DNA from: Arcobacter sp. FWKO B
GTDB lineage: Bacteria > Campylobacterota > Campylobacteria > Campylobacterales > Arcobacteraceae
Length of the DNA: 64,000 nucleotides
Assembly: GCF_014844135.1 (NCBI RefSeq)
Contig: NZ_CP041403.1
Span: 992,001 to 1,056,000 of the forward strand
Reading direction: 5' to 3'
The position numbers and the translations under genes were made by a program. This document shows positions 5,455 to 35,258 of this stretch, one piece after another. Position 1 is the stretch's first letter. Each line of letters starts with the position of its first letter. The notes under the pieces are model-generated. The model saw nothing but the letters and a program-made list of their open reading frames with translations. It made no database searches and had not been told where the DNA came from.

Positions 5455-6801
5455 TTATTTGACCTTTGCTTTATATTTTTGATTTGGACTTTTTGGTTTA
5501 TCTGGTATTGTGAGTTCCAAAAGTCCTTGTTCCAACAATGGATTTAAAACATTCTGCCTAAAATATGTTTTGTGCTTCATATCAATAAAGTTCATAATCT
5601 CTTTGGTTGTCTTTGGTTCTTTACAAAATTTCAATATAGCTTGGTCAGTAGCTTGGTCAGTAGCTTGGTCAGTAGCTTGGTCAGTAGCTTTAGCATCAAC
5701 TATTTTTTCACTGGAATAAAAAATATTTCTCATAAAATTTTGACTAACTTCAAAACTATCTTTTCCGTAAACTTCTAGTATTCTACCTAATCCAGAGCCT
5801 AGATGTTCCACTAACTCCACATCTTTAAATACTCTCATTAGTTCTCGATTTATAGGTTTTGAATATCCTGCAAAAAAGTCTTCAAGATTTTTAATAGTTG
5901 AAATACCACCACTTGATGTTATCTCTATTCTGTCACTGTATATCTCAAAAACAGGTGGTAATTCTGTAGTGTAATCATTGTGAACCATGGCATTTATAAC
6001 AGCTTCTCTAAGAGCCACTTTATTCCATAAAGGTGTTTCTACTCTAGTTTTATGAGTTATTTGTGCAGCTGTTTTGTTTTCTATATCTAGTTTATCTAAA
6101 ACTTTATGGGTAGCCTTTATGAGTGAACAATATCCATACTCATTGTTTTCTATCAAGTCTATTTTATTTTTACCTGCATATTTCGCCACTTTTATAGATG
6201 TTCCATTTGTGTCAGCAAGTAAATATGCTACATAGTTATAGTGTCCATCTTCGGTCAAAAGCTCCAGATTGGAAGCAAACTTATCATTTAGTTTCAAGCC
6301 CTTTTCTTCATAGTAAATCTTAAGTTGTTCAAATGTCAAATCTTGACGATGTGATTTGATTTTACTAAGTGAATTTCTAACTCTTCTTGCAAATAAATCT
6401 TCTATCATGACTTGACTCATAGGTTCACTACTACTTCCTACACGGATATAGCAACCTTTTTCTGACATACCATTTTTCTTGATGTAATAAGGAGTTTCTC
6501 TACCGCTTGCAACTATGATTTTTATAATATATTTGTTTTCTACAATTTCCAAGATAACTTCAAACAATCCTAGGCATGATGGCGAAATATTATGCTTTAG
6601 TCTATCTTTTATTTTAAGTTGATATTCATCTGGATTCTCACATCCAACTACAATACCATTTACATCCACACCAATATATATCAAACCACCCTCATGATAG
6701 TTCAAAAAAGCTACAACCTCTTTTTCTAAACTATCTGTTAAAGTTTTTTTGAATTCTACTCTGTGGGTTTCAGTAGTTTGTACCGTGTGTTTGTTTGTCA
6801 T
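5455..6801 (-). CDS. AlbA_2 (Schlafen-like) DNA-binding protein with HATPase_c_4 domain
   Basis: 448 residues. N-terminal AlbA_2 domain (residues ~13-125; VEFKKTLTDSLEKEVVAFLN, GGLIYIGVDVNGIVVG, YIRVGSSSEPM) and a central RecG-like/HATPase_c_4 region (ALREAVINAMVHNDY near 262, SDRIEITSSGG near 288). A 4-residue ATDQ motif is then repeated four times, followed by a winged-helix-like end (TTKEIMNFIDMK). Such proteins are commonly annotated as transcriptional regulators or ATP-dependent helicase-like; the true role is poorly known and some occur in defence islands. It is unrelated to sugar synthesis, which suggests it was inserted between the glycosyltransferases and wbpV. Confidence 0.8.
   Translation of the reverse strand: MTNKHTVQTTETHRVEFKKTLTDSLEKEVVAFLNYHEGGLIYIGVDVNGIVVGCENPDEYQLKIKDRLKHNISPSCLGLFEVILEIVENKYIIKIIVASGRETPYYIKKNGMSEKGCYIRVGSSSEPMSQVMIEDLFARRVRNSLSKIKSHRQDLTFEQLKIYYEEKGLKLNDKFASNLELLTEDGHYNYVAYLLADTNGTSIKVAKYAGKNKIDLIENNEYGYCSLIKATHKVLDKLDIENKTAAQITHKTRVETPLWNKVALREAVINAMVHNDYTTELPPVFEIYSDRIEITSSGGISTIKNLEDFFAGYSKPINRELMRVFKDVELVEHLGSGLGRILEVYGKDSFEVSQNFMRNIFYSSEKIVDAKATDQATDQATDQATDQAILKFCKEPKTTKEIMNFIDMKHKTYFRQNVLNPLLEQGLLELTIPDKPKSPNQKYKAKVK
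5639..5686. repeat. four perfect 12-bp tandem repeats inside the AlbA_2 gene
   Basis: The unit gcttggtcagta occurs four times with no mismatch and encodes ATDQ on the minus strand. Twelve is a multiple of three, so gain or loss of units keeps the frame. It probably acts as a variable-length linker between the ATPase-like region and the C-terminal winged helix. Confidence 0.95.
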
Positions 6802-15393: not shown

Positions 15394-16458
15394 TTAACCC
15401 TCCAATACTTCTAAATATTTTTTACTTATTTTACCTATATCAAAATCCAAAGCTCTTAAATAAGCATTTTCAGACAACTCTTGTCTGTATTCATCATCAC
15501 TCAACACTTTTACTATATCTTTAGTTAACTTATCTACATCTCCTACTTCTACTAATATCCCATTTTCATTTGGTTTATTTATTATCTCATTTGGTCCTGA
15601 TGGACAATCAAATGATATTACTGGGCATTTACAAGCCATTGACTCTATTACTACATTTGGCATACCTTCCCAAAGAGATGTTAATACAAACACATCACTA
15701 TTTTGCAACCAATAAAAAGGATTATCTTGCCATCCTAAAAACTTTACATCATTCTCTATTTTTAATTGTTTAGTTAAAGCTTTCAATTCTTCTTCTCTCT
15801 CACCTTTTCCTATTATCAACAATTCAACATCTTCTACCTGCTCTTTTACTTTTGCAAAACTCTCTAGTAAATAGTGTTGGGCTTTTTGTTCTACTAATTG
15901 TCCTATATGAATAATTCTTTTTTTATCTCGTTTTTCCTTTTTATATATCTCTATTTTTTGAATGTCTAGAAAATTATAAATTGTATTTACTTTTGCATCT
16001 ATTCCAAAGAAGTCTTGTAATTCGTTTTCCAAATACCTAGCTGGTGTAATAATCATATCAAGTTTTCTATAAAAAAGCTTAGTAAGTAAATAAACCAACC
16101 AGTTTTTTATTGTTAAGCTTGAAAAAGAGTTTGTAATCCTAGCTATCTTCTTTACATCTTGCCCCATAAGGGCATTTAAAATATTTGGATATTCTCCCAT
16201 ACTTATGATATGAGTTATTTTCTCATCTTGCACTATTTTTTTTAACTTCTTATAAGAACTTATAAATCTACTAAGTTTATTTCCGCTAGTTTCAAGATGA
16301 TAATGTTTGCCCTCATATTTATATGGCAACTGATTATCACACAATGTAACAATACAATTTTCAATATTTTCATCTGAAAACATTTCACTTAATCTTATAG
16401 CAACTCTTTCTGTACCACCTTGATTACAGTTTGGCACAAATATCAAAATATTATTCAT
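15394..16458 (-). CDS. GT4 family glycosyltransferase (shares a donor domain with 11515-12636)
   Basis: 354 residues. N-terminus MNNILIFVPNCNQGGTERVA; the donor half from residue ~190 to 328 is identical in DNA to the GT4 gene 3.9 kb downstream in the operon, including SLWEGMPNVVIESMACKCPV (EX7E). The N-terminal half aligns with that paralogue only loosely, so the acceptors probably differ. It overlaps wzx by 4 bp. The last ~25 residues diverge again after the block ends. Confidence 0.88.
   Translation of the reverse strand: MNNILIFVPNCNQGGTERVAIRLSEMFSDENIENCIVTLCDNQLPYKYEGKHYHLETSGNKLSRFISSYKKLKKIVQDEKITHIISMGEYPNILNALMGQDVKKIARITNSFSSLTIKNWLVYLLTKLFYRKLDMIITPARYLENELQDFFGIDAKVNTIYNFLDIQKIEIYKKEKRDKKRIIHIGQLVEQKAQHYLLESFAKVKEQVEDVELLIIGKGEREEELKALTKQLKIENDVKFLGWQDNPFYWLQNSDVFVLTSLWEGMPNVVIESMACKCPVISFDCPSGPNEIINKPNENGILVEVGDVDKLTKDIVKVLSDDEYRQELSENAYLRALDFDIGKISKKYLEVLEG
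15476..15888 (-). repeat. 413-bp identical block, copy 2 (GT4 donor domain)
   Basis: Partner of 11612-12024, offset 3,864 bases, same orientation. Homologous recombination between the copies would delete asnB, the zinc-ribbon methyltransferase and one glycosyltransferase N-terminus, leaving a chimeric transferase. Confidence 0.93.
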
Positions 16459-17714
16459 TTATTTCCTTTAAAATATTTAAAGACATAATAAGACATAATT
16501 AACATAGAAATTATATATCCTACTGACCATCCTATTACTACACCTAATAGTTCAAAATACAAAGCTAAAATATAACATAGTACAACATTTATTAATGCTG
16601 TAATAAACATTGCCATAGAGACAATTTTTGCTTTTCCTATACTTACTAATAAAATACCATTAAACCAATTGGGTATACCAATAAACATTGCTACTGAAAA
16701 AATTTGCAAGATATATGCACTTTTTATTGCCATTTCTTGATCTATCCAAAAAGATATTATAAGTTCTGCAAATATAAAAAAAAATATTGTTAATACACCA
16801 CCTGTTCCATATCCCAATAAGAGTGTTTTTTTATATATTCTTTTTATTTCAGTAATATCATCAATAACAGCATTAAATCTAGGATATGTAGCTGAAGAAA
16901 TAGCATTTACTACATCCCAAATCCTTGCAGCTATTGTATATGCTATTGTATATGGGGTAACAAAAGCGGCACCCAATACATTAGCAATAATAAATTTATC
17001 CATATGCTGAGCTAATTCACCACTTGCATTTGCAGAAAATAGATGTAAAGATAGTTTTATAATATTCTTTGCCAATGATTTACTAAAAAATAAAATATTA
17101 GCTAATTCTATATAGATTAATTTATTTATATATTTTACATAAATAAATAGAGTTATAATAAAAGAAACTATATAAACAGCGATTGCCACAGATATTGAAT
17201 ATCCCAAATAGATTAAATATGTAGATAAAAGTAGCCTAAACACAGTAGCATATATATTACCTATATTGACTTCATGTAGTCTTTCATATCCACTTAATAT
17301 CGCACCAAAAAAGATTGTAAATAATTTAAATGGCAGTGCTATTGCAATCATAATTAAAGCATCGACCGTTTCTAAATAATTTTCTTTACTTACATTGAAC
17401 AATTCAGTTGATATAAAGTCTTTTGAAAAAAATATAACTATAAATGCTAATAAACTTAAAGTTAAATAGAGCCAAAATGCTGTTTGGTAAACCTCTTGTT
17501 TATTTTTAATGTTGCTATCAGCAAAAAGTTTTACTAGACTAGAACCAAGTCCTAATTCAAACAATGACCCATACCCTAGAACTGTAATAACTAAAATAAA
17601 TATACCATATTTTTCATCACCAAAAACTTTTACGATAATGGGTGTTACCGCTAGTGCAATAAGAAGTAGCAAACCTCTCGTAAAAAAATTCGATATAATA
17701 TTTCGCTTTAACAT
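16455..17714 (-). CDS. wzx: Wzx-type lipid-linked oligosaccharide flippase
   Basis: 419 residues with about twelve hydrophobic segments, of the MATE/PST superfamily. N-terminus MLKRNIISNFFTRGLLLLIA and the early FGDEKYGIFILVITVLGY (residues ~31-48) are typical of Wzx, followed by LGLGSSLVKLFAD. It moves the undecaprenyl-PP repeat unit across the inner membrane for polymerisation by Wzy. It overlaps the upstream TIGR04372-type gene by 7 bp and the downstream GT4 gene by 4 bp, so it is tightly coupled in the operon. Confidence 0.9.
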   Translation of the reverse strand: MLKRNIISNFFTRGLLLLIALAVTPIIVKVFGDEKYGIFILVITVLGYGSLFELGLGSSLVKLFADSNIKNKQEVYQTAFWLYLTLSLLAFIVIFFSKDFISTELFNVSKENYLETVDALIMIAIALPFKLFTIFFGAILSGYERLHEVNIGNIYATVFRLLLSTYLIYLGYSISVAIAVYIVSFIITLFIYVKYINKLIYIELANILFFSKSLAKNIIKLSLHLFSANASGELAQHMDKFIIANVLGAAFVTPYTIAYTIAARIWDVVNAISSATYPRFNAVIDDITEIKRIYKKTLLLGYGTGGVLTIFFFIFAELIISFWIDQEMAIKSAYILQIFSVAMFIGIPNWFNGILLVSIGKAKIVSMAMFITALINVVLCYILALYFELLGVVIGWSVGYIISMLIMSYYVFKYFKGNK

Positions 17715-18913
17715 ATCAGATCTATATTATCTTTTAAAAATTTATTTGATATTCTATATTTATATTCAAATAGTATCTTTTCAACATCTTCTTTAGAATT
17801 TCCAAGTGACCAAAACCTTTTTTGAAGTTCTAACTCTTCTTTTGTTTCAACATAACCATCATCTATGAATAAATTCATTTGTATAGCAGCTTGTAAAATA
17901 TCCTCTTCTGTATTTTCTATAAATTCAACATCACCGAAATGATCTTTTAATGCATTTAAAAAAACATCTTCTCCACCCATATGTGATTCTATATTCCATA
18001 TCTGTGAAAAAGTCATTAGTTTATTTGTTGATTTAATTAAAATTTTCTTAGGTAATATTACTGATCCATAAGAGAAATATTGCCATGTTTCCATCTCAAT
18101 TGGCAAAAAATTTACAAAAACCCCAGGTTTTCTAAAAAGTGGGCCTATAGCATTTACCCCAGTATTTGAGACTATATAAAACTTACATTTATAGAATAAA
18201 GCAATATCTAAAAATTCTGATTGGTATTTACTTGAAGCATATTCAAAATAATATTGATCCTCTATCTTTAAACTTTCTTCTACTCCTTTTCCCATTCTTA
18301 ATGTATATATTGATTGATTTGCAAAATAATCTATTGATTTTATATAGTTTTTAGGATTTGAGTTCCTAAAGTTTTGAAAGCTCCAATCCAATGAAGGCAT
18401 AAAATTCTTTTTATAAGAACTATCTCTATTATGCACACATATAAAAATTTTATCATTTAATTGAAGTTCTTGTAAACTTTTTTCTAAACTCTTTATATCT
18501 TCTTCAGAAAAAAAAATATTACTTGCATATTTATTACATTCCCAAATATGATATGTTGAAGGAATTGCATTAAATTTATTATGAAATCCTAATAATTTCA
18601 TATTAAGCCTGTAAGGGTATTCAAACCATGTATTAATATTATTTAACAAACCTGTTTTCTTAAATAACTCAAGTAATTTTTTATTAGATATAAAATATAA
18701 TGACCGATAAGTTAAAAAAAACAAATCAAGACTAAAAAAACTTTGCTTCTTTTTTAAGGTAATGTAACTATCAGTCGCTCGTATAAAATCACCTAAAGCA
18801 TTTGAATTTAGATTACCTATACGAATCAATAAAAAAGGTGATACAATCCACATGAATAGGACAAAAGGGACTGCACTTATTAATCCTAGTAGATCTATAA
18901 TTTTCCTTGTCAT
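17708..18913 (-). CDS. TIGR04372-family putative glycosyltransferase
   Basis: 401 residues with one N-terminal membrane segment (residues ~10-32). The middle reads KIFICVHNRDSSYKKN near 155, FRNSNPKNYIKSIDYF near 182, and FYIVSNTGVNAIGPLFRKP near 245, which fits the TIGR04372 group found in polysaccharide loci. That group is annotated as glycosyltransferase mainly from context and a GT-B-like fold; no member's reaction is known to me. It overlaps wzx by 7 bp and abuts the sugar-nucleotide synthesis genes, so a transferase acting on the special sugar made here is plausible. Confidence 0.7.
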   Translation of the reverse strand: MTRKIIDLLGLISAVPFVLFMWIVSPFLLIRIGNLNSNALGDFIRATDSYITLKKKQSFFSLDLFFLTYRSLYFISNKKLLELFKKTGLLNNINTWFEYPYRLNMKLLGFHNKFNAIPSTYHIWECNKYASNIFFSEEDIKSLEKSLQELQLNDKIFICVHNRDSSYKKNFMPSLDWSFQNFRNSNPKNYIKSIDYFANQSIYTLRMGKGVEESLKIEDQYYFEYASSKYQSEFLDIALFYKCKFYIVSNTGVNAIGPLFRKPGVFVNFLPIEMETWQYFSYGSVILPKKILIKSTNKLMTFSQIWNIESHMGGEDVFLNALKDHFGDVEFIENTEEDILQAAIQMNLFIDDGYVETKEELELQKRFWSLGNSKEDVEKILFEYKYRISNKFLKDNIDLIC

Positions 18914-19627
18914 TTAAAATATATCCTTTTTTTCTAATGTATCGATTTGTGCTAAACTATAACTTTCTAAAGTCCCTATATCACGGTGGTACACATCATT
19001 ATGAAATACATATATTTTACCAATATAATGAGGTATAACCTCGGTACTTAAATCAATCATTTTTTTATTTAGACTTTCCAAAAAAGATATTATACAAGGT
19101 TCCATAATATATACGGCAGCATTTGCTAAATTTGTCGGTGGATTTTTTACCTTCTCAAAAAATTCTTGAACTAACCCTTCACTATCTTTAGATATAACTC
19201 CACACTGTGTAGGATTATCTGTTTCAAATGTCATCATAGTAATTTCACATCTCTTGGGTTTACATTTATGAGCATTAATAAAAGCAGAGAAATCACATAC
19301 ACTTAAATTATCAGCATGTACGACCATAAAACTATCATCGTTCAGATGGTCTTTTACATTTAATATTGTTCCAGCTGTTAATAATAATTCTTCTTCATAC
19401 ACAAGTGTGACTTTCTCTCTATAGATTGATTCCTCTATAAACTTATCAACTTTTTCACTAAAATAGTGTGTATTTATAATAAATCTTGTGATACCAGCTT
19501 TAGTAAGATTTTCAAGCCAATACTCTAATAATACTTTTCCATTGATTGGAACTAAACATTTAGGTATATGATTTGTCACAGGTCGCAATCTTGTCCCTAA
19601 TCCTGCTGATAAAAGTAATGCTGTCAT
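18914..19627 (-). CDS. NDP-sugar pyrophosphorylase (HddC/RmlA-like nucleotidyltransferase)
   Basis: 237 residues. MTALLLSAGLGTRLRPVTNH carries the GxGTRLRP signature, PKCLVPINGKVLLEY the K-P motif, VVHADNLSVCDF near 97 the metal-binding Asp, and FFEKVKNPP near 155 the sugar-binding EKP-like loop. It activates a sugar-1-phosphate with an NTP. Length and sequence suit HddC-like or mannose-1-phosphate guanylyltransferase-like enzymes. It overlaps the kinase-nucleotidyltransferase fusion by 4 bp, so the two probably work on one sugar, but the sugar and base are not readable. Confidence 0.85.
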   Translation of the reverse strand: MTALLLSAGLGTRLRPVTNHIPKCLVPINGKVLLEYWLENLTKAGITRFIINTHYFSEKVDKFIEESIYREKVTLVYEEELLLTAGTILNVKDHLNDDSFMVVHADNLSVCDFSAFINAHKCKPKRCEITMMTFETDNPTQCGVISKDSEGLVQEFFEKVKNPPTNLANAAVYIMEPCIISFLESLNKKMIDLSTEVIPHYIGKIYVFHNDVYHRDIGTLESYSLAQIDTLEKKDIF

Positions 19628-21096
19628 TGTCGTAACTCTTTATTCAATTCATCAATATTTAAAGGAATATTCCCAACTCTCCCAACTTGGCATGCTGCTG
19701 CTATAGAACCTATATATGCCGCTTCTATAACACTGGCACCTGATGCAATAGCCATGGATGAAGATATTAGTAAAGAATCCCCTGCCCCTGCTACATCTTT
19801 AGGTGCACTATTTAATGCCTTAATTTGATCAGTGATCCATTTTTCACTTTTTTCTTCTGAATCATTTTCAGAATGTATTAAAATTCCTTCTGAACCTAAT
19901 GTAATAAATATATTTTTTATATCTGACTTACTTCTTAACTTTTCAGCAAGTACAATAAGACCCGATTCAAAATCATTTACTCCCAATCGAGCTTCCCTTT
20001 CTGTAGGGGTAACTAAAGTCATACCTTTAAACTTTGAAATATCACCTGTTTGTGATGAAGATTGACTATCAGCGACCATCATTATATTATTTTCTTTACC
20101 TAAGTTCGTAATTTTCTCTATTAAACTAATGGGTAAACACCCATAACTAAAATCAGAAAATACTATCAAATCTTTATTTTTTATTACTTTTTCCAAATCA
20201 TTGAAGATTTGATCTTGCATCTCTTTACTCATATGATGTTGTTTAAGATGATTTACTCTTAATAAAGTTTTACTATTAGCACGAAATCTTTGCTTTAAAG
20301 TAGTAGGTCTACTATTATCAGAATACAGATATGCATTCACTTTATATTCTTTTAATTTATCTTCAACTAAGTTTGCATAATTATCATTTCCAATAATAGA
20401 AATAAAATCAACATTTGCACCCAATCCAGCTGAATGTGCTGCAACAATACCTGCACCACCTAAAAATATATTTGACGATATAGGACTAACTACTATTGTT
20501 GGATCTTCTTGACTCATTCCAAGCGGTTCACAAGTGATGTATTCATCAACAATTACATCTCCTATCACTAATACATTTAAATCTTTAAACTTTTCTAAAG
20601 TAGACAAAAGTTTGTTATAATCAATTTGATGCCTATTAAGATATGATAAAGGTTTTTTAATGGCTGTATGCTCTAACTGATTTATCTCATCTTGTAACAA
20701 AGACAATGATGAAAACTTGATATCTCCTGAACTAAAGATCAACTTACCACCATATGATTCTATCAACTCTTTTTCAGAATTAACTTTATCTTCATGTTCA
20801 CTACCTTTTACAACAATCTCTGGTTTAAGCCTGGCTATAAAATCTATAGGTTCATCTTGTAAAATAAAGGCATAGTCAACATACATAGAATGATTTACAC
20901 TTTCTAGTCTAATATTAGCATCCAAAAGTTTTACATTTTTATCTTCTTGATTTACCCCAACGACTAAAAAATCACTACTTTCTTTTGCAAATTTTAAAAA
21001 TCTTAAATGACCAGGATGTAATATATTGAAATTTCCAGAAACAAATGCTATCTTTTTACCATCAGCTTCTTTTTTTATTTGCTTAATAAGAGTCAT
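19624..21096 (-). CDS. bifunctional nucleotidyltransferase-PfkB kinase, HldE domains in reversed order
   Basis: 490 residues. Residues ~14-135 form a cytidylyltransferase-like domain (KIAFVSGNFNILHPGHLRFL with the HPGH motif); residues ~165-490 form a PfkB/ribokinase domain (LVIGDVIVDEYI, FLGGAGIVAAHSAGLGANV, and the catalytic DVAGAGDSLL near 441). In HldE/RfaE the kinase precedes the nucleotidyltransferase; here the order is swapped. HldE phosphorylates heptose-7-phosphate at C1 and adenylylates it. With a GmhA-like isomerase and transketolase in the operon, a heptose-type substrate is plausible. Family assignment of each domain is firm; the substrate is inferred. Confidence 0.85.
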   Translation of the reverse strand: MTLIKQIKKEADGKKIAFVSGNFNILHPGHLRFLKFAKESSDFLVVGVNQEDKNVKLLDANIRLESVNHSMYVDYAFILQDEPIDFIARLKPEIVVKGSEHEDKVNSEKELIESYGGKLIFSSGDIKFSSLSLLQDEINQLEHTAIKKPLSYLNRHQIDYNKLLSTLEKFKDLNVLVIGDVIVDEYITCEPLGMSQEDPTIVVSPISSNIFLGGAGIVAAHSAGLGANVDFISIIGNDNYANLVEDKLKEYKVNAYLYSDNSRPTTLKQRFRANSKTLLRVNHLKQHHMSKEMQDQIFNDLEKVIKNKDLIVFSDFSYGCLPISLIEKITNLGKENNIMMVADSQSSSQTGDISKFKGMTLVTPTEREARLGVNDFESGLIVLAEKLRSKSDIKNIFITLGSEGILIHSENDSEEKSEKWITDQIKALNSAPKDVAGAGDSLLISSSMAIASGASVIEAAYIGSIAAACQVGRVGNIPLNIDELNKELRQ

Positions 21097-21099
21097 AAA

Positions 21100-22146
21100 T
21101 CAACCAATATTTTTATTTATTTCAATTAACGGACGAGTCACTTTTCTATTTTCAAGATCATCCAATGCAAAATTGATTTCATCTAAAGTATAACGTTTTT
21201 CTAATAATCTATCCAAAGGTAGTTTACCTTCTAAATATAGGTCAAAGAACTTAGGAAGATCTCTATCAGGGTAGCATCCACCACCCCAACTACCTTTAAT
21301 GTTTTTCCCACAAATCAAATCAAAAGGATCTATTTTAATTAACTCACCTGCTTTAGGATGAGAAGCAAACACGCTTAGTCCACCATTGTTTTTTACCGAC
21401 TTAAATGCTGTTTCGATGACCATAGTTATTCCAGATGCTTCAACTGCGTAATCTACACCTTTTCCATCTGTCAAATCTAATATCTTTTTTAAAGAATCTT
21501 CTTTTAATGAATTGATAGTATCTGTTGCACCAAACTCTTTGGCCAATTCTAATTTATTATCTTCAATGTCAATAGCAATAATTTTTGAACATTTATAAAG
21601 TTTTGTTGCCATTAATGCACTTAGTCCTATACCTCCCAGTCCAAAAATTGCTATTGTTGAGTTTTCTTCTGGTTGAATTTCATTTGTAACAATACCTGAA
21701 CCTGTCGGAATTGCACAACCGAATAAGACTCCTATATCTAACGGTACATCATCAGGTAACTTCACTAATCTATTCTCTGATACTACAGAATATTCATTAA
21801 ATGTCGTAACGCCACCTGAATTAACTATAATCTTATCGTCATTTAGATACTTTGCTCCTTCGGCATTGATACCATCACCTTTAATCCAGCCTAAGACTAC
21901 TTTATCTCCAACTTTAACTTTCGTCACATCTGGACCAATCTCTTTAACAATTCCTGTAGCTTCATGCCCCAAAAGATGTGGTAAAAATTTATCTTCACCT
22001 CTTTTACCTCTTACTTCCATAAGTTGAGAGTGGCAAACCCCACTGTAAGCTAATTCTACTAATACTTGTCCTCTCAGAAGTGTACTCCACTGAATCTCTT
22101 CAACTTTCAACGGTTTTGCTAATTCATATAAAACGGCTGCTTTCAA
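21100..22146 (-). CDS. zinc-type alcohol dehydrogenase (MDR superfamily)
   Basis: 348 residues. Catalytic-zinc residues: Cys in YSGVCHSQLM near 38 and GHEATG near 60. The NAD-binding loop is AIFGLGGIGLSALMATKLY near 168. The segment after VGDKVVLGW that normally carries four structural-zinc cysteines has none, so the structural zinc is absent. It oxidises an alcohol or reduces a carbonyl with NAD(P). Within this locus a polyol, a sugar phosphate or an NDP-keto-sugar is the likely substrate; I cannot choose. It is 3 bp after the reversed-HldE gene in genome order and just downstream of a broken epimerase gene. Confidence 0.85.
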   Translation of the reverse strand: MKAAVLYELAKPLKVEEIQWSTLLRGQVLVELAYSGVCHSQLMEVRGKRGEDKFLPHLLGHEATGIVKEIGPDVTKVKVGDKVVLGWIKGDGINAEGAKYLNDDKIIVNSGGVTTFNEYSVVSENRLVKLPDDVPLDIGVLFGCAIPTGSGIVTNEIQPEENSTIAIFGLGGIGLSALMATKLYKCSKIIAIDIEDNKLELAKEFGATDTINSLKEDSLKKILDLTDGKGVDYAVEASGITMVIETAFKSVKNNGGLSVFASHPKAGELIKIDPFDLICGKNIKGSWGGGCYPDRDLPKFFDLYLEGKLPLDRLLEKRYTLDEINFALDDLENRKVTRPLIEINKNIG

Positions 22147-22148
22147 CT

Positions 22149-22930
22149 CTAGTCCTTTCTGTTATTTAAATATTTTAATATTCTATTTTTTGTATTTGAC
22201 AATTCAATATATTGTTTGAGCTTACTAATGTCATGTAATCCACTACAACTACCAGTAACTGTATTTTCTATTTTAGGTAAGTGTAATTTTACAGTGTCAG
22301 ATATTAAAGGTAATATGTCTTCAAGAAGAATATATTCATCCAATGCAATATTATAGACCCATGATGGTAACTTCTTTTTTAAAACCGATGAAACAATAAT
22401 ATTAACAAGATTGGCTACATGAATAATTGAATTAAATTTATTTTTTGGATTATAGATATTAATATTAAAATCTATAACATCATTCACTAGATTTACAATA
22501 AATGTATGTGTGGAATCTTTACCTACAACTGTAGGCAATCTTAATATTATATTATTTTCATTAGTCATTATTGTTCTTTCAGCTGAATACTTGAACATGC
22601 CGTAAATAGAACTATTACATATTTCGACCTCTTCAGAAATATATTCAATATTTTGTTTTCCATATACATCTCTAGTAGATAAATAAATAATCTATGAATC
22701 AGGATATTTTTCAACAATCTTTCATGTAAGTATAATATTTGTATCAATATATATTCTAGTTCATTTTTTATATTTGAAGTAGTAAATGCGGCTGCTTGAA
22801 TAATGCAATCATATTTTACATTTTTTAAGCTATCGCCTCTGGAATATCCATCAACATCAAACTCCCTCTTCAAATAAAAATATTTTTGAATACCAATAAA
22901 ACCTTTATATCCAGTCACCAAAATTTTCAT
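22149..22930 (-). pseudogene. broken NAD-dependent epimerase/dehydratase
   Basis: Two ORFs (22568-22930 and 22149-22598) are halves of one SDR gene. The first begins MKILVTGYKGFIG and is colinear to NELEYI, where a TATATATT run near 22747-22756 carries an extra AT and shifts the frame. In the restored frame the text runs DTNIILT-stop-KIVEKYPDS-stop-IIYLSTRDVYGKQN, with nonsense codons at 22723-22725 (TGA) and 22693-22695 (TAG), then YGMFKYSAERTIM and ILRLPTVVG to the natural end. Three lesions make a sequencing artefact unlikely. The gene would have supplied an NDP-sugar reductase or epimerase step now lost or done elsewhere. Confidence 0.85.
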
Positions 22931-22939
22931 TAAAAAACC

Positions 22940-23599
22940 TTAAGGTATAAACCAATAATAGTCTCCAGTATATCCTACTTCATCAAAAAACTCTTTCCAC
23001 TCATCAGTATGCATCATAGTTAAAGCTGTCAAGTTCCATGCTTCCATTCTTTTTTTCTCTTCATCATTTCTATATGCATCAAGTGTAATAAAAGCATCCT
23101 TTTTAGTAACTCTCATAATCTCTTTTAAAGCAATTTTCATATCTTCTTTTGTTAGGTTATGTAATGTAGTTACTGAAATAACTAAATCAAAGCTATTATC
23201 AGGAAATGGAAGTTTTCTTGCATCTGCAACTTGTAAAAACTCTTTTACTTCCTCTTTTGAATTTTCAATCGCATACTCTGATACATCAATACCTGCAATT
23301 TCAATTCCAGGAATTTGATTTTGTAAATCAAATAACATAAAACCTTTTGCACATCCTATATCTAAAACTTTGCTATTTTCATTTAAATTATAATATTCTT
23401 TAAATGTAGGGATTACCGGTCCCCAAAATCTTTCATTGTAACCAAAACCACCATAACCATGACTTCTATCACCATCAAAAAACTCTTTTCCAAATTTTCT
23501 AGCAAGTGCTCTATCTTCTGATGTTTTCTCTTCAAGTCTTTTAGTTAAATCTCTTTTCGACTTTGGATAATTTTCCATTAAATCAATTTCTTTTCCCAT
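22940..23599 (-). CDS. class I SAM-dependent methyltransferase
   Basis: 219 residues. SAM-binding motif VLDIGCAKGFMLFDL near 80-94, acidic IAGIDVSEYAIE near 103, then ADARKLPFPDNSFDLVISV near 127 (Methyltransf_11 pattern). An N-terminal helical part (residues 1-60) contains EKTSEDRALARKFGKEFFDG and GYGGFGYNERFWG. Small methyltransferases of this kind in polysaccharide loci O-methylate or N-methylate a sugar. It lies between the SDR dehydratase and the broken epimerase, with 9-10 bp gaps. The substrate is unknown. Confidence 0.8.
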   Translation of the reverse strand: MGKEIDLMENYPKSKRDLTKRLEEKTSEDRALARKFGKEFFDGDRSHGYGGFGYNERFWGPVIPTFKEYYNLNENSKVLDIGCAKGFMLFDLQNQIPGIEIAGIDVSEYAIENSKEEVKEFLQVADARKLPFPDNSFDLVISVTTLHNLTKEDMKIALKEIMRVTKKDAFITLDAYRNDEEKKRMEAWNLTALTMMHTDEWKEFFDEVGYTGDYYWFIP

Positions 23600-23608
23600 T
23601 TTTCACCT

Positions 23609-24595
23609 TTATTTTTTATGTATATAATAATCTGGATATGTTAAGAGTTCATCATAATCTCTCTCAATCCACTCTATCACTTCACGAATTCCTTCTTTTA
23701 ATGTTACTTCAGGCTTAAGATTTAATTCTTTTAAAGCTTTTTCATTACTCATTAAATATAAAGAATCTTGACCTACTCTATCTTCAGTAATGTCAATACA
23801 ATCATTAATATCTACATTCAATTGATTAGCAATCATATTGACAAGATCATAAATAGATATAAGTTTGTCATTTGTTAAATGATATACCTCACCTATCGGT
23901 GCTTTTTTTATAATCTCCAATGTAATTCTTGATACATCATCAATATGTATAAAGTTTCTTACAGCTTTACCTCCACCGTGCAAAGGCAAGTTAACACCTT
24001 TTTTGATAGATAAAATAGTTTTAGGAATAATTCTATATAATTGCTGATATGAACCATAAACATTTGAAGCTCTTGTATAATTTATCGGAAACTTATGTGT
24101 TTTAAAATAAGCATATAGAGCTAAATCTGCACTTGCTTTTGATGCAGCATAAGGAGAAGATGGAGCAAGATTCATTGATTCAGTTATATTATTGCAATCA
24201 CCATAAACTTCTGGTGTTGAGACTTGCAAAAATTTTTTTATAAATTTAAATTTATAAATTCTATTTAATAAGTTAACCAATGCTAATGTATTTGTTTCAA
24301 ACCATTGTTCTGGTGCATTCCAACTTTGAGCAACCATTCCTTGTGCTGCAAAATTTACAATATACTCTATCTTATTATCTTCAATAAGTTCTACAATTTG
24401 ATCAATATCATTATTCATATCTAATTTATGAAACTTTACTCTATTTTTATTTATATTATTTTTATAAGATAATAAAATTCTACTATATTCATCTGAGCGA
24501 CTTACTGCAAATATTTCAGAATTATCATTATCAAGAATATAATTTATAAATGATCCTGCTGAGAACGAATTACTTCCAAGTACTAGATAGCTCAT
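23609..24595 (-). CDS. SDR-type NDP-sugar 4,6-dehydratase/epimerase
   Basis: About 328 residues from the ATG at 24595, which overlaps the transketolase stop as TAATG; a GTG 9 bp upstream is the alternative. Extended SDR with a modified nucleotide loop (LGSNSFSAGSF instead of GxxGxxG), STPEVYG near 125-131 with the Glu typical of 4,6-dehydratases, and the catalytic YAASKAS near 149. NFIHIDDVSRI and the C-terminal sugar-binding part are normal. It most likely makes a 4-keto-6-deoxy NDP-sugar, which the neighbouring transketolase, methyltransferase or dehydrogenase could then modify. Confidence 0.8.
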   Translation of the reverse strand: MSYLVLGSNSFSAGSFINYILDNDNSEIFAVSRSDEYSRILLSYKNNINKNRVKFHKLDMNNDIDQIVELIEDNKIEYIVNFAAQGMVAQSWNAPEQWFETNTLALVNLLNRIYKFKFIKKFLQVSTPEVYGDCNNITESMNLAPSSPYAASKASADLALYAYFKTHKFPINYTRASNVYGSYQQLYRIIPKTILSIKKGVNLPLHGGGKAVRNFIHIDDVSRITLEIIKKAPIGEVYHLTNDKLISIYDLVNMIANQLNVDINDCIDITEDRVGQDSLYLMSNEKALKELNLKPEVTLKEGIREVIEWIERDYDELLTYPDYYIHKK

Positions 24596-25083
24596 TAGAT
24601 ACACCTAATATACGTAGGTCCTGGATATTCTAGCATCTCTTTAATATTTTCAGCGAGAGTTTTTTTCGTGGGTGAATAAACTTTGATATTTTTCAATATT
24701 TTCATAAGCTCTAGATCATCACTATCCATACAATGACTTCTGCCTAAAGTAGCAAAATAATTTTCAGCACCAACACCTATTAACTTCACATTCATATTAT
24801 GCTCATTTAAATCATATCTAATTTGCTCATATGCTCTCATTGTTAAAAAAGGAACTTGAGAATAAATAATTGGTTTTAGTCCTGTTAAAACCATACCTGC
24901 AGAAATACTTACTGTTGCTTGTTCATTGATTCCTGTATTAAAAACTCTATTTGGATGATTATTAAAAAAATCATCTAAAACAGCAAATCCCATATCCCCA
25001 ACAAGTAAAGTCATTTTTTCATCTGTACTAAAATATTTATACACCTCTGCCATAACATCTTTTTTTGAGATTAATTTATTCAT
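24595..25083 (-). CDS. transketolase-like subunit, pyrimidine-binding domain only
   Basis: 162 residues. Pyr domain of a thiamine-diphosphate enzyme: FNTGINEQATVSISAGMVLT near 68-87 carries the catalytic Glu that activates the cofactor, and PFLTMRAYEQIRYDL near 98 is standard. The protein ends at residue 162, right after the Pyr domain; usual C-terminal transketolase subunits are ~300 residues with a third domain. The stop overlaps the SDR start, so the short form is real and not a broken end. It works with the subunit encoded just upstream (8 bp overlap). Confidence 0.85.
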   Translation of the reverse strand: MNKLISKKDVMAEVYKYFSTDEKMTLLVGDMGFAVLDDFFNNHPNRVFNTGINEQATVSISAGMVLTGLKPIIYSQVPFLTMRAYEQIRYDLNEHNMNVKLIGVGAENYFATLGRSHCMDSDDLELMKILKNIKVYSPTKKTLAENIKEMLEYPGPTYIRCI

Positions 25084-25873
25084 TATTTAACTCCAATACA
25101 TATCCATCTTCTGTAGGACATCTAAAATGATGATCTTCAGAATGTTCTATAAAGTCTATTCCTTTACCTTTTATAGTTCTTGCGACTATAATAGAAAAAT
25201 TACTATTTTTATTTTCATAAAATGCTTTTACACATTTATTGATTTCCTCTTCATTATGACCATCAATATCATAGAAACCGTCATCAATAAATGAATTTAA
25301 AACTTTAGAAAGTCTATCATTATCCAATGCAATATTTTCAACTCTTCCCATAGCTTGAATATCATTTGCATCTATTATTACCAATAAATTATCAAGTTTA
25401 AATCTATATGCTAGCATTAATGCCTCGAAATTACTACCCTCTTGCATCTCACCATCACCAACGATACAAACTACCTTATTTGGCATATTTTGCATTTTAA
25501 ATGACTGAGCCATACCTACTGCAATTGGTAAACCATGTCCTAAAGAACCCGTTGATGCTTCAATCATAAAATCTTTATTGTATGTCAAACAACCTTTGAT
25601 TCTTGCTTTTTCTGTATAAAAATTATCTAATTCCTCTTTGGGTAAAAAACCTAATTCATTTAATACTATATAATAAGCATATGCTCCATGACCTTTACTA
25701 AGTATAAATCTATCTCTTTTTAGAGAATAAGGATTTCCTTTTTCGTATTTTAAGTATTTATCAAATAAAACGGTTAAAAGCTCCACTGTGGATAATGCTG
25801 GTGCTAGATGTCCTGCACCAGTTTTACAGGACAATTCAATTGTTTTTTTTCTTATATCTTCAGATTTTAACAT
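25076..25873 (-). CDS. transketolase-like subunit, diphosphate-binding domain
   Basis: 265 residues from the ATG at 25873, preceded by AGGAAG; a longer frame to 25924 would overlap the radical SAM gene and has no site. ThDP-binding signature GDGEMQEGSNFEALMLA near 137-153 ending in ANDIQAMG, with SKGHGAYAYYIVLNE near 62 and GSLGHGLPIAVGMA near 104. N-terminal half of a split transketolase; with the following Pyr subunit it should move a two-carbon ketol unit. Split transketolases in sugar loci may make a heptulose phosphate or attach a two-carbon branch to a keto-sugar; which applies here is open. Confidence 0.87.
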   Translation of the reverse strand: MLKSEDIRKKTIELSCKTGAGHLAPALSTVELLTVLFDKYLKYEKGNPYSLKRDRFILSKGHGAYAYYIVLNELGFLPKEELDNFYTEKARIKGCLTYNKDFMIEASTGSLGHGLPIAVGMAQSFKMQNMPNKVVCIVGDGEMQEGSNFEALMLAYRFKLDNLLVIIDANDIQAMGRVENIALDNDRLSKVLNSFIDDGFYDIDGHNEEEINKCVKAFYENKNSNFSIIVARTIKGKGIDFIEHSEDHHFRCPTEDGYVLELNNE

Positions 25874-25881
25874 TACACTTC

Positions 25882-26976
25882 CTAAATAAAATTTACATGA
25901 GAATTCGGGTTTTTTAAATTCCATAGATATCTATTAATTTCATCCATTCTACAATTTTTTCTGCACATAGATATATCTAAACTATCTTTTACATAAACAA
26001 TATTTTCTTTTCGTTTATCACCTTCCCAAATCTCTTGAAAAGTTTGTTCATTTATATTTCCCAAATTGAATTTTTCATTCTGTAAAAATGCACTACAACT
26101 ATATAAAGAGCCATCAGCCATCAAATAAGCCCAAAAATTTGGAGTAGAATAACATTTTTCATAAGGCTGTTTATCTTCTTCTAACTTTTTCATTGTATTT
26201 GCTCTAAAAATAACTTTAAAACTATCAGTTTCATATTTTTTCAATTCTTCTTCTAATTTCATCATATTATTGTATGTTAAACCTTCATATTTTCTCGATT
26301 CTCCATACAAGCTTTGAGTATAAGGTTTAATAACTAAATAATCTATTTCAATTTCAGCCATTTTTTTTGCTAGAGATACAGCTGTATCTTTATTTTCTGG
26401 AAGTAATAACATCTGTGCACCAATTGTGCAATCATAATTATTTTCTTTTTTAATTTTAGATGCCAAAGCTAAGTTGTCAATTACTTTATCAAAATCTTCT
26501 GCTTTTGTTTGATGAACATCAGCATATACATCTCGTGTTCCTGCATTGATACTTACTTTTATCCACTTACAATTTTTTACATAATTTGTTGTTGTTTTTT
26601 CATTCATAGCAACTGCATTTGTTGTTAAAGAAGTATCAATACCAACTTCCGAACATACATCTAAAATATTTGGCAATGGCTTGTAAAGGGTGGGTTCACC
26701 CTCTCCAGCGAACATAATACTTTTTACTCCTAGCTTTGCCATTTCTCTTATTCTATCTGATAAAACTTCTTCATCTTGTTTAATACTTTTATATCCAATA
26801 TAATCAACAGAACAAAAAGTACACCTATGATTACACGAGCCTATTGGTGTGATTTCTACATATATCGGATATACTTTTTTTAACTTTTCCCAATCATCAC
26901 AAGCTTCATACCAATGAGATACTCTAGTTGGATGGAATATCATTTTATGACTATCGATATTATATTTATCTGACAT
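25882..26976 (-). CDS. radical SAM enzyme with SPASM-like C-terminus
   Basis: 364 residues. The 4Fe-4S/SAM motif is CNHRCTFC near residues 48-55, followed by FAGEGEPTLY near 94 (SAM binding). The C-terminal part has Cys residues at CYSTPNF, LYSCSAF and CRKNC, as in SPASM/twitch domains that hold extra clusters. Enzymes of this plan modify peptides or sugars (dehydrogenation, epimerisation). It overlaps the SIS gene by 11 bp and is 8 bp from the transketolase gene, so it belongs to the same sugar pathway. A radical step on a sugar phosphate or NDP-sugar is inferred. No precursor-peptide ORF is evident nearby. Confidence 0.82.
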   Translation of the reverse strand: MSDKYNIDSHKMIFHPTRVSHWYEACDDWEKLKKVYPIYVEITPIGSCNHRCTFCSVDYIGYKSIKQDEEVLSDRIREMAKLGVKSIMFAGEGEPTLYKPLPNILDVCSEVGIDTSLTTNAVAMNEKTTTNYVKNCKWIKVSINAGTRDVYADVHQTKAEDFDKVIDNLALASKIKKENNYDCTIGAQMLLLPENKDTAVSLAKKMAEIEIDYLVIKPYTQSLYGESRKYEGLTYNNMMKLEEELKKYETDSFKVIFRANTMKKLEEDKQPYEKCYSTPNFWAYLMADGSLYSCSAFLQNEKFNLGNINEQTFQEIWEGDKRKENIVYVKDSLDISMCRKNCRMDEINRYLWNLKNPNSHVNFI

Positions 26977-27544
26977 TGCATTTACCTTTCTCTATATAAT
27001 ATGAATAAATCATGTGATCTAATATCATATGAACATCTTCTACAAGTCCATATTCACCTTTTGGAGCATCTACATGAAAATTGACATCACTTAACTCTTT
27101 CAATTTTCCACCATCAAAACCTGTTACACCAATTACTTTTGCACCAACTTCTTTTGCATACTCTATAGCCTTTGTAATATTTGAAGAGTTTCCACTACAA
27201 GATATTGCTATAATCACATCATCAGGTTGTAAAATACCTTTTAATTGCATATAAAATATATTTTCAAAACCAATATCATTGGCAATTGCACTAGTTACAG
27301 CAGAATTATCTCCTAAACTAACTATATTTATATTTCTAATATCTCTTCTTCTAAGTCCTATACCTAAATCATTTGCCATGTGTGATGCAGTTGCACTGCT
27401 TCCGCCGTTTCCAACAACATACACTTTTGATTTTTTTTCACTCGTTCTTTCTAATGTACTTATTATTTCTTCTAAAATACTTACATCTATTTGATCTAGT
27501 AAGTTTTTTAAGCTATTTATATAACCATTAAAAAAGTTATTCAT
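26966..27544 (-). CDS. GmhA-like SIS-domain phosphosugar isomerase
   Basis: 192 residues from the ATG at 27544, which has AAGGA upstream; the frame extends 15 codons further without a site. YVVGNGGSSATASHMANDL near 36-54 is the SIS phosphate loop, and ISCSGNSSNI near 105 the second. EDVHMILDHM near 170 carries the His matching the GmhA catalytic His, while the position of the E. coli Glu65 is Asp here. GmhA converts sedoheptulose-7-phosphate to heptose-7-phosphate. With a transketolase in the operon (a source of sedoheptulose-7-phosphate) and an HldE-like fusion, a heptose route is attractive. Confidence 0.85.
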   Translation of the reverse strand: MNNFFNGYINSLKNLLDQIDVSILEEIISTLERTSEKKSKVYVVGNGGSSATASHMANDLGIGLRRRDIRNINIVSLGDNSAVTSAIANDIGFENIFYMQLKGILQPDDVIIAISCSGNSSNITKAIEYAKEVGAKVIGVTGFDGGKLKELSDVNFHVDAPKGEYGLVEDVHMILDHMIYSYYIEKGKCNVR

Positions 27545-27816: not shown

Positions 27817-28161
27817 TTAAACAACTCTTTGTACTCTTACACCAGTCATACTATCTATTCCTATATCTAAAGGAGGAATTTTCCATGGTTCTGATGAGTT
27901 GTTTAATACTTCCATTTTCCTTGTTTGCATATCAATAGTAACATCACTTTGATGTAAAAAGTAATTTGTAAAATACTCTTTTATATAATAACCTTTATAC
28001 CCTAGCAATAATACAAATTCATTAAATCCATATGAAAAGTATATTTTTATAATATGCCATAAAATATGCTTACCACCTATTTCTACCATAGGCTTTGGTC
28101 TTATATCTATTTCTTCTGCTAGTCTTGTTCCCAATCCACCTGCTACTAATAATACTTTCAT
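27817..28161 (-). pseudogene. rfbF: truncated glucose-1-phosphate cytidylyltransferase (rfbF fragment)
   Basis: 114 residues. LLVAGGLGTRLAEEIDIRPK and PMVEIGGKHILWHIIKIYF are the start of RfbF, and the frame stays colinear through EPWKIPPLDIGIDSMTGVRV, then ends at VQRVV. Full enzymes are ~257 residues, so the second half, including much of the sugar site, is gone, and the 227 bp that follow contain no recognisable remainder. A leftover of a former CDP-glucose pathway, cut when another sugar block was inserted. Confidence 0.85.
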
Positions 28162-33591: not shown

Positions 33592-34908
33592 TTAAATTAC
33601 ATCAAGTCTTAAATTCCCACGAACAGTATTGAAAAGTTCTTTACCTACATTAAATTTTGGAGCAAGTTGCTCAAATTGAGAGAAATTATGGATTGTATGT
33701 TTTAAAATTTCAGTAGATTTTTTCTCATTAAGATTACAATATTTGCCAAATGATATAATATCATCTTTTAAAAACTTGTCTTGTTTGCCATTTAGTCTAA
33801 TTTGATGCATATTTGTCCATTTGCCCTTTGGATCATATGAATATGTCATATCAAATGCTGGAGCTAAGTGCCATTTTCCACTTTTGTCCATTAAAAATCC
33901 GAAGTTTTTAGTGTGGTCGTCTTGATTTCTTCCTATTATATTAAATATAGCCCTTTTAAATAGCTCAGTTATGCTATCTTGTCCAAGACCTAATTCTCTT
34001 GCAGTCATAATAAGTTGTTCATAACTGTATGCACCTGTTGTTTCTCTATGTGCGTGTGATAAGCCACACCATGAAACATAGTGTAGTTTTTCTAGCTTAT
34101 TACTATTGTGTTTTTTAACTCTATCAAACCTTTGGCTTAAAAAGTGAAAATCATCACCAAGTTCAATATATGATGTATTAGCAATGTCTATACCACACTC
34201 TTTAGCAATAAGTGAATAAATATATTCTATTCTTGTCATACCTTTTGGGTCTTTGTTGTCCCTATCACTATTATCAATACTATCAAACTTTAAAATATAA
34301 TACTTACACATATTAGTTTGCTCAACCGTTCCATCATATATGTTGTCATCTTCATCAATAGCAACCAATGCCTTGCTTCTAGCTCCACCTGCACTTGAAC
34401 CTATTTTTAGTAAACTTATTGCATCATCTCTATGGGTCTGTTTTAATTTATGTGCAAAAGCTTCTTTGTTACTTAAAACCATTTGTGCAAGTTGTGATAA
34501 GGAGTCTAAATCAAGTGCTATATTTGATTTTCTTGATTTTAAAGTTTGTGATGGTTCAAACTCCAATGCACCCATAGCTCTAAAACCAACATAAAGTAAC
34601 CTATCAAGTGCTGTTATTTCACTTTGTTGTTTTCCAATTGATGCAAAATATTGGTCTATTAGCTGGTTACCAAATTTATCTGGCAAAGAGTCTGCTATAA
34701 AGCCAGGAAGTCCATGGAATGTTTTTTTACTAATATCATCAAATGTATAAATAGATGAATTGGTAGGAAGTTTTAGTGGCGATGGAGATATACCCATTTT
34801 TAAGAAATTATCATCATACTCAAATGTTGCAATTTCACTTTGTCCTGGTTCATACCCAAGTACCCCTATGTGAGTACCCCAAAGTTTTACATTGACAATT
34901 TTACTCAT
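33592..34908 (-). CDS. hipA: HipA-family kinase toxin
   Basis: 438 residues. N-terminal HipA_N part (LWGTHIGVLGYEPGQSEIAT; FHGLPGFIADSLPDKFGN near 54-71) and a C-terminal kinase fold with the ATP-site SSAGGARSKALVAI near 171, TGAYSYEQLIMTARELG near 291, and the catalytic NIIGRNQDDHTKNFGF near 318 with AFDMTYSYD near 344. HipA kinases phosphorylate a translation target (glutamyl-tRNA synthetase in E. coli) and cause persistence. It overlaps its HTH partner by 4 bp. Length is that of a full toxin, so it should be functional. Confidence 0.88.
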   Translation of the reverse strand: MSKIVNVKLWGTHIGVLGYEPGQSEIATFEYDDNFLKMGISPSPLKLPTNSSIYTFDDISKKTFHGLPGFIADSLPDKFGNQLIDQYFASIGKQQSEITALDRLLYVGFRAMGALEFEPSQTLKSRKSNIALDLDSLSQLAQMVLSNKEAFAHKLKQTHRDDAISLLKIGSSAGGARSKALVAIDEDDNIYDGTVEQTNMCKYYILKFDSIDNSDRDNKDPKGMTRIEYIYSLIAKECGIDIANTSYIELGDDFHFLSQRFDRVKKHNSNKLEKLHYVSWCGLSHAHRETTGAYSYEQLIMTARELGLGQDSITELFKRAIFNIIGRNQDDHTKNFGFLMDKSGKWHLAPAFDMTYSYDPKGKWTNMHQIRLNGKQDKFLKDDIISFGKYCNLNEKKSTEILKHTIHNFSQFEQLAPKFNVGKELFNTVRGNLRLDVI

Positions 34909-35240
34909 TTATCATCTCCCCATTTTATTTCATCTATTTGGGTACGCTTTTTAAAAACTCTTTTAGGTAGTTTATCATATTTGCCAGATGGACTAAAAGG
35001 TTTTTTATAGGTTAATACACTTTGTAGTTTATCTAGTTCACCTATTCCTCTAAACATTTGAATCAAAGTACCTAGTCTGATATTAGTTCCTCTATTAATA
35101 AAGTTACTATATGTTTGTGAATTATGTCCACCTTTTTGTGCCATATCTTCACTACTTATTTGTTTAGCAATTCTCATTTGCTCAATACTTTTTGCGATTT
35201 CTTGCAGTATTTGTTCATCTGACATAAAATTAAAATCCAT
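34905..35240 (-). CDS. hipB: HipB-like HTH antitoxin/regulator
   Basis: About 111 residues from the ATG at 35240, which has GGTGGG 7 bp upstream; an ATG 12 bp earlier (35252) is possible. Helix-turn-helix region around QISSEDMAQKGGHNSQTYSN and FINRGTNIRLGTLIQMFRGI, then a basic tail (LPKRVFKKRTQ). It pairs with HipA by gene overlap and should bind operators upstream of its own gene; a short palindrome lies 7-22 bp before the frame start. Confidence 0.8.
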   Translation of the reverse strand: MDFNFMSDEQILQEIAKSIEQMRIAKQISSEDMAQKGGHNSQTYSNFINRGTNIRLGTLIQMFRGIGELDKLQSVLTYKKPFSPSGKYDKLPKRVFKKRTQIDEIKWGDDK

Positions 35241-35258
35241 AACACCCACCATATCAAG

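Follow-up and report, generated by a model that had tools for sequence, protein, structure and literature searches.

A modular cassette with a split transketolase and a radical SAM enzyme as a candidate route to a C-branched activated sugar in Arcobacter sp. FWKO B

Enzymes of the E1 type and split transketolases have been described or proposed as makers of two-carbon branches on keto-sugars, and transketolase branching is listed for Streptomycetes only, with none shown in vitro (PMC12247030). Two-subunit ThDP enzymes of the alphaKADH2 type (E1-alpha/beta) are also present in sugar clusters, such as those of aldgamycin and kibdelomycin, and the branches they add are subsequently reduced, methylated or transaminated (PMC12247030). 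In the LPS O-antigen, the decarboxylase-type enzyme YerE carries out ThDP-dependent two-carbon branching in the synthesis of yersiniose A, using pyruvate and CDP-3,6-dideoxy-4-keto-glucose.

A sequence-only reading of a 64,000-nucleotide stretch of the Arcobacter sp. FWKO B genome (contig NZ_CP041403.1, positions 992,001 to 1,056,000; hereafter the window) had proposed an undescribed sugar pathway encoded in one tight operon, and all the genes it named were found, on the minus strand and with spacing between -11 and +9 bp. The cluster comprises ten intact genes and one broken gene, all in that orientation, in an O-antigen/capsule-type locus. The TIGR04372-family glycosyltransferase (17708..18913, minus strand; E 6.8e-48) reported to lie beside the biosynthetic genes is confirmed by a score of 162.9 bits against a cut-off of 45. 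Two decayed genes were missing from the earlier gene list: an SDR pseudogene with a frameshift and two in-frame stops (22149..22930, minus strand), whose C-terminal part is 33% identical to an intact gene in the same place in locus L038, and a remnant of RfbF, the glucose-1-phosphate cytidylyltransferase (27817..28161, minus strand; residues 1-113 of 257), with 73% identity to the RfbF of L071. Because of this decay, the product of the window copy may be simpler, or there may be none.

The cassette has a second copy in the same genome and is present in more than 12 other Campylobacterota genomes, the scan of genome contigs having contributed just four further loci. A split transketolase lies within 10 kb in 28 of the 29 rSAM1 loci (rSAM1 being the radical SAM enzyme of the cluster), and the remaining locus is divided between contigs. 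A looser related combination is found on plasmids of two other phyla. The search for the gene set in other genomes that had been called for thus speaks against a feature of this strain only, and the proposal of a conserved pathway is further sustained by a literature search that returned no account of this gene set, most subscription journals lying outside that search. Chance or a one-strain oddity was ruled out by the conservation of the cassette.

The ThDP enzyme, with conserved catalytic motifs and located in a nucleotide-sugar cluster, is encoded by two genes. The transketolase N (ThDP-binding) subunit (25076..25873, minus strand; the ORF reaches 25924, longer than in its relatives, which begin at an inner ATG) matched PF00456 in a profile search with 113.9 bits against a cut-off of 22 (E 1e-32); its GDG motif is kept in an alignment of 20 relatives, and the closest solved protein is the split transketolase 6yak. 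The second subunit (24595..25083, minus strand), 162 aa long, matched PF02779 alone, with 49.4 bits against a cut-off of 27, its GI-EQ motif being conserved in 18 relatives and the catalytic Glu assigned by motif. The C-terminal domain PF02780 is absent from this subunit and from the cluster, and genome-wide just four distant ORFs have it. The two-subunit transketolase of the sequence-only reading is therefore present as N and pyrimidine (Pyr) subunits, but the latter is a Pyr domain and nothing else. Its relatives in 15 of 397 genomes stop at the same point, their N partners form a single clade, and in one genome (L048) both subunits are naturally fused; the AlphaFold model of this fusion was good over the N domain only, and its Pyr part was disregarded. 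A frameshifted full-length C-subunit was discarded, since the 18 aligned relatives are pyrimidine-only and PF02780 is confined to unrelated genes, as was a phage origin of the Pyr subunit, phage matches being at most 36% identical.

In rSAM1 (25882..26976, minus strand; PF04055, PF13186), C48, C52 and C55 (CX3CX2C) along with C275, C294, C338 and C342 are invariant in 23 sequences. Its description as a SPASM-type enzyme holds for the radical SAM motif and the existence of auxiliary cysteines, but the four invariant C-terminal cysteines, plus C183, do not make up the full SPASM set for two auxiliary clusters; as judged from sequence, they are compatible with a single one, of the twitch kind (PMC9012708). 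The structure model (pLDDT 87.8) has SuiB and DesII as nearest folds, the latter being an NDP-sugar enzyme. Similarly, the predicted 4,6-dehydratase, SDR1 (23609..24604, minus strand), is a dehydratase-like short-chain dehydrogenase, but scored 218.2 bits with the RmlB equivalog TIGR01181, under the cut-off of 365.1, and TPE replaces the TDE triad in six of six relatives. The type-B SDR resembles an epimerase. Given this resemblance and the loss of the dehydratase Asp in SDR1, neither SDR is an evident source of the ketone. The class I SAM methyltransferase (22940..23599, minus strand; PF08241) is 77-86% identical to its copies in L034, L038 and L039, and the zinc-dependent alcohol dehydrogenase (21100..22146, minus strand; PF00107, PF08240) is 64-74% identical to those in L034, L038 and L070.

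The heptose-type enzymes are distant from their curated families. The GmhA-like SIS sugar-phosphate isomerase (26966..27544, minus strand, or up to 27589 with a TTG start; PF13580, E 1.1e-19) gave 113.2 bits with the equivalog TIGR00441, under its cut-off of 209.45, and its metal-site residues H70, D74, E184 and H192 (numbering of the 207-aa ORF) are invariant in 15 relatives. In the nucleotidyltransferase-kinase (19624..21096, minus strand; hereafter NT-kinase), the cytidylyltransferase domain (PF01467, residues 19-111) precedes the PfkB domain (PF00294, 174-477), which bears out the reversed HldE order noted earlier, and both HldE equivalogs scored under cut-off (TIGR02198, 203.8 against 345 bits; TIGR02199, 71.4 against 181.5). 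The NTP_transferase gene, for a sugar-1-phosphate nucleotidyltransferase (18914..19627, minus strand; PF00483, E 3.4e-35), directly follows the NT-kinase gene in nearly all intact cassettes; the HddC guanylyltransferase equivalog NF049965 reached 74.2 bits, below its cut-off of 300. No GmhB phosphatase is encoded in the cluster, the sole above-cut-off match being at 645926, beside canonical gmhA and hldE. As the cell has its canonical gmhA, hldE and gmhB elsewhere, the GmhA- and HldE-like enzymes of the cluster are specialised paralogues; for the same reason, the main heptose pathway of the cell was ruled out as the role of the cluster.

Natural replacements of the ThDP enzyme bear directly on its function. 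In two genomes, its place is taken by a full-length split transketolase and in another, L070, where the cluster otherwise matches, by a pyruvate-type E1-alpha/beta enzyme; a phylum-wide search found no other close relative of the L070 E1-alpha. E1-alpha/beta is also present in a related cluster on an Azospirillum plasmid, with isomerase and kinase just 28-33% identical. The E1 swap is thus seen twice, at a single locus in Campylobacterota and on this one plasmid. Because such E1 enzymes add two-carbon branches, this exchange favours the second of the two models in the sequence-only reading, in which the transketolase adds a two-carbon branch to a keto-sugar. The other split transketolases of the phylum adjoin RfbF and a CDP-glucose-dehydratase-like gene, a pair that would supply a 4-keto acceptor. 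L070 is devoid of a radical SAM enzyme of the rSAM1 kind, which means that rSAM1 cannot be the source of the ketone in every such cluster.

The best overall explanation, to which we give slightly less than an even chance, is that the cassette builds a C-branched activated sugar through ThDP-dependent two-carbon branching, and that it is a modular, horizontally shared unit dedicated to a single unusual activated sugar destined for a surface polysaccharide. An NDP-aldose, probably heptose-like, would be made by the GmhA-like isomerase and the NT-kinase together with the separate nucleotidyltransferase, and rSAM1 and/or the SDR would create a ketone on an activated sugar. With a ketose phosphate (or hydroxypyruvate) as donor, the two-subunit, two-domain transketolase would then attach a ketol unit of two carbons to this ketone, so that the sugar gains a C-branch and a tertiary alcohol. 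The branch or the ring would next be reduced by the alcohol dehydrogenase and methylated by the methyltransferase, and a glycosyltransferase and the flippase would carry the unit into the polysaccharide. A more specific version, in which a new kind of transketolase, with two domains over two subunits and the third lost, acts with rSAM1 as its constant partner and maker of the ketone acceptor to give branched higher-carbon NDP-sugars for Gram-negative surface polysaccharides, is possible but on balance unlikely.

A less likely rival of the branching explanation is that the operon houses two independent sugar pathways, with the GmhA-like enzyme, NT-kinase and nucleotidyltransferase producing one residue and the transketolase and rSAM1 making or modifying another of the same repeat unit. 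The modules are indeed separable, as rSAM1 and transketolase occur without GmhA-like or NT-kinase genes in L060-L062, L064, L065, L067 and L077, L070 shows the reverse, and GmhA-like relatives are found in further contexts (L098, L099). However, rSAM1 is present in 14 of the 16 genomes (among 397) that have the NT-kinase, the genes are interleaved in a single operon, and the related combination recurs on the plasmids of two other phyla. That same separability, along with the E1 swap in L070, weakens the first model of the sequence-only reading, since a GmhA-type enzyme would be unable to isomerise what the E1 enzyme is expected to make (a 1-deoxy ketose or an acetyl branch). According to that model, which we consider improbable, the transketolase forms either sedoheptulose-7-phosphate or some less common or longer-chain ketose phosphate, such as an octulose phosphate, which is isomerised by the GmhA-like enzyme and activated by the NT-kinase, the NDP-sugar being altered by rSAM and SDR enzymes. 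The gene set fits this order of chemistry, GmhA-like and NT-kinase genes co-occur in 15 of the 16 genomes, their closest curated families are heptose enzymes, and the octose of lincosamides, made from octulose-8-phosphate, would offer an analogue (PMC12945683); against it, the cluster has no phosphatase, and the full transketolase, gmhA, hldE and gmhB of the cell are located outside it.

Some natural-product pathways load two-carbon ThDP units on carriers, and aminotransferases are encoded next to the NT-kinase of L076 as well as in the cluster from Azospirillum. Transfer of the acyl or ketol group to a carrier or to a sugar amino group, with no carbon-carbon branch, nevertheless seems very improbable, no lipoyl or acyl-carrier protein being found among the assigned genes of the examined neighbourhoods.

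If the branching explanation is true, bacteria would have a way of making branched sugars for their surface polysaccharides by means of a transketolase, to which a radical SAM enzyme is linked. As three ThDP enzyme types are naturally swapped in one cassette, matched enzymes allow donor specificity (hydroxyacetyl or acetyl) to be tested directly. The purpose of the C-terminal domain could likewise be probed with the two-domain transketolase, and a product search is possible in Malaciobacter halophilus DSM 18005, which is in culture and bears a cassette.

Among known systems, miharamycin and amipurimycin likewise have a split transketolase in the biosynthetic cluster, with a proposed hydroxyacetyl addition to a keto-sugar (PMC12247030). 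They are streptomycete antibiotics, in contrast to the polysaccharide considered here, and neither system is proven in vitro; in the window, the second subunit is devoid of the C-terminal domain and the constant partner is a radical SAM enzyme. The alphaKADH2 enzymes use pyruvate as donor and leave an acetyl branch, whereas the window enzyme is of the transketolase type, and no radical SAM or heptose-type enzymes are named for YerE, which shares with our proposal the branching of an activated keto-sugar. With the ADP-/GDP-heptose pathway (GmhA, HldE, GmhB, HddC) the cluster has isomerase, kinase and nucleotidyltransferase folds in common, but its enzymes all fall under the curated cut-offs, the domains are reversed and there is no GmhB. 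In the lincosamide octose route, a higher-carbon ketose phosphate is also converted to an NDP-octose by products of isomerase, phosphatase and nucleotidyltransferase genes (PMC12945683), although in an actinomycete antibiotic cluster and with a transaldolase instead of a transketolase. Finally, the Carboxydothermus split transketolase (PDB 6yaj/6yak) also divides the N and Pyr domains between two chains, but its C-chain has 341 aa, of which the match spans just residues 51-190, while the window subunit ends after the Pyr domain.

Within the window (bases 992001-1056000 of a single contig of 2,243,170 bases), every gene between 17708 and 27544 lies on the minus strand, with intergenic spacings of -11 to +9 bp. 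Pfam and NCBIfam profiles bore out the gene list of the sequence-only reading with corrections, including two elements absent from it: a damaged SDR gene (22149-22930), interrupted by a frameshift and two more stops, and, at 27817-28161, what remains of RfbF, just the first 113 of 257 residues. The surrounding genes identify the setting of this cassette as a polysaccharide locus, and include a Wzx-type flippase (16455-17714), a Glycos_transf_4 protein (2592-3554), GT4- and GT2-type glycosyltransferases, and ManC-like and UDP-sugar dehydrogenase genes. A Schlafen/AlbA_2 domain protein is encoded at the locus edge (5455-6801, minus strand). Also on the minus strand, a DarT-like ADP-ribosyltransferase gene overlaps a macro-domain gene (629-2462), the layout of a DarTG toxin-antitoxin pair, and at 33592-35252 a small gene overlaps the upstream end of a HipA-type kinase gene (PF07804, PF13657), the two probably forming a HipBA pair.

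The set, put forward earlier as an undescribed sugar pathway, is indeed conserved, and the earlier interpretation of it is borne out in part. A second copy in the same genome (L034), with 55-85% protein identity, comprises the GmhA-like isomerase, the radical SAM enzyme rSAM1, both transketolase subunits (N and Pyr), SDR1, methyltransferase, alcohol dehydrogenase, a cytidylyltransferase-PfkB fusion (NT-kinase) and a nucleotidyltransferase, and more copies occur in many other genomes (L035-L052, L063, L066), among them Malaciobacter halophilus DSM 18005 (L050). At the cassette loci compared, SDR1 (window, L034, L038, L040, L041 and L070) alternates with a GalE-like SDR (L035-L037, L039, L042, L044, L049-L052, L063, L066), and the two were never found near one transketolase. 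Homologues of rSAM1 are present in 28 of 397 Campylobacterota genomes, with a split transketolase within 10 kb in 28 of 29 loci, the exception being split between contigs; in the same collection NT-kinase was found in 16 genomes, 14 of them with rSAM1 and 15 with a GmhA-like gene. Since Fisher values for co-occurrence ignore relatedness and horizontal transfer, weight is placed on co-localisation only. Three loci also encode B12-binding radical SAM proteins related to P- or C-methyltransferase families (L035:11366-12805, L038:16988-18499, L039:6556-7986), which could C-methylate the sugar. Inside the L038 cassette, a relative of the 2OG-Fe(II) oxygenase TIGR04324 (11186-11989; 93.8 bits against a cut-off of 150) may link the cassette to the NCBI-defined 'sporadic carbohydrate cluster' type.

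Scores against the curated equivalogs stay under the cut-offs for the GmhA-like protein, for the kinase and NT, and for the nucleotidyltransferase, and canonical gmhA, hldE and gmhB are grouped at 642882-646423 of the genome. The heptose-type enzymes of the cluster are therefore specialised paralogues; their substrate is probably heptose-like. Gfo/Idh/MocA oxidoreductases and 2-hydroxyacid dehydrogenases are neighbours of two more GmhA-like relatives (genomes G294 and G103), joined in G103 by a CTP_transf_3 gene, so the GmhA-like substrate is not necessarily sedoheptulose-7-phosphate.

Two roles had been proposed for the transketolase, namely supplying sedoheptulose-7-phosphate to the GmhA-like and HldE-like enzymes, or adding a two-carbon branch to a 4-keto NDP-sugar. 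The locus L070 (genome G243) bears on this choice, as it retains the GmhA-like gene, SDR1, another SDR, methyltransferase, alcohol dehydrogenase, NT-kinase and nucleotidyltransferase, while neither transketolase nor rSAM1 was found in the stretch read and genes for E1-alpha (PF00676) and E1-beta (PF02779 and PF02780) stand in their place. In L063 and L066 the same slot is held by a full-length split transketolase, which brings to three the types of ThDP enzyme that it accepts. Pyruvate-derived acetyl branches are put on keto-sugars by E1-type enzymes (alphaKADH2), and split transketolases have been proposed to put on hydroxyacetyl branches, none of these transketolases being proven in vitro (PMC12247030). 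A ketose derived from pyruvate would be 1-deoxy, hence not isomerisable by a GmhA-type enzyme, and for this reason branching is favoured over sedoheptulose-7-phosphate supply, which becomes the less likely of the two. In other Campylobacterota (L071-L074), split transketolases adjoin RfbF and a CDP-glucose-4,6-dehydratase-like gene, a pair that is a textbook source of a 4-keto acceptor; this set may be a simpler way to make a branched CDP-sugar. A shorter module also recurs in this phylum (L060, L061, L062, L067, L077), consisting of an rSAM1 homologue, a full split transketolase, a methyltransferase and another radical SAM protein (rSAM358), with no GmhA-like or NT-kinase genes in these modules.

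The protein rSAM1 (25882-26976) has a CX3CX2C motif and four more invariant cysteines, which by the definition of auxiliary clusters in SPASM and twitch domains (PMC9012708) are too few for a two-cluster SPASM and would fit a single auxiliary cluster. In comparisons with its structural model (pLDDT 87.8), SuiB and DesII come nearest; BlsE likewise scores high, and BtrN lower. The substrates of DesII and BlsE are nucleotide-linked sugars. This likeness, together with that to BtrN, a radical SAM alcohol dehydrogenase (PMC9012708), makes it plausible that rSAM1 helps to make the keto acceptor; at L070, which lacks a radical SAM of this kind, the ketone would have to come from another source. In the branching scheme, the mechanism with the best support, heptose-type enzymes would activate the sugar and the ThDP enzyme would add a two-carbon branch to its ketone, with the radical SAM as partner. 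We infer every chemical step, and give the whole scheme slightly less than an even chance.

Related arrangements exist in other phyla. An Azospirillum oryzae plasmid (L079) encodes E1-alpha (47% identity to L070), E1-beta (40%), a SIS protein (33%), an NT-PfkB fusion (28%) and a GalE-like SDR (56%), and its rSAM2, a second kind of radical SAM, is 66% identical to the Campylobacterota version. A Solidesulfovibrio plasmid (L078) carries rSAM1 (45%), SIS, NT-PfkB fusion, split transketolases and a TIGR04372 glycosyltransferase. An orphan protein adjoins rSAM2 in several cassettes (L040:8447-8746, L042:9020-9727, L044:9008-9727, L051, L052, L079:14251-15333); that of L042 has no match in Pfam, and BLAST finds relatives in L044, L051, L052 and, at 19% identity, Azospirillum, the short L040 protein being likened to it by eye only.

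The two transketolase subunits described earlier are present, the second being a pyrimidine domain alone (162 aa). The C-terminal domain PF02780 expected of it is not near the cluster, and the only four ORFs with it genome-wide are all far off. Relatives of this subunit in 15 of 397 Campylobacterota genomes (57-73% identity) are nearly all short frames and stop at the same point in the alignment, so the short form is no local truncation. In G346 (L048, 9704-11161) the N and Pyr subunits are fused, and the fusion also stops after the Pyr domain. A quick tree, in which long-branch placement is unsure, gathers all 20 N-subunit partners of short Pyr subunits into a single clade (SH-aLRT 100, one change). 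Both the ThDP motif GDG and the catalytic Glu motif (GI-EQ) are conserved among the relatives. Among solved proteins the nearest is the split transketolase of Carboxydothermus; its C-chain has 341 aa, against 162 aa for the second subunit in the window.
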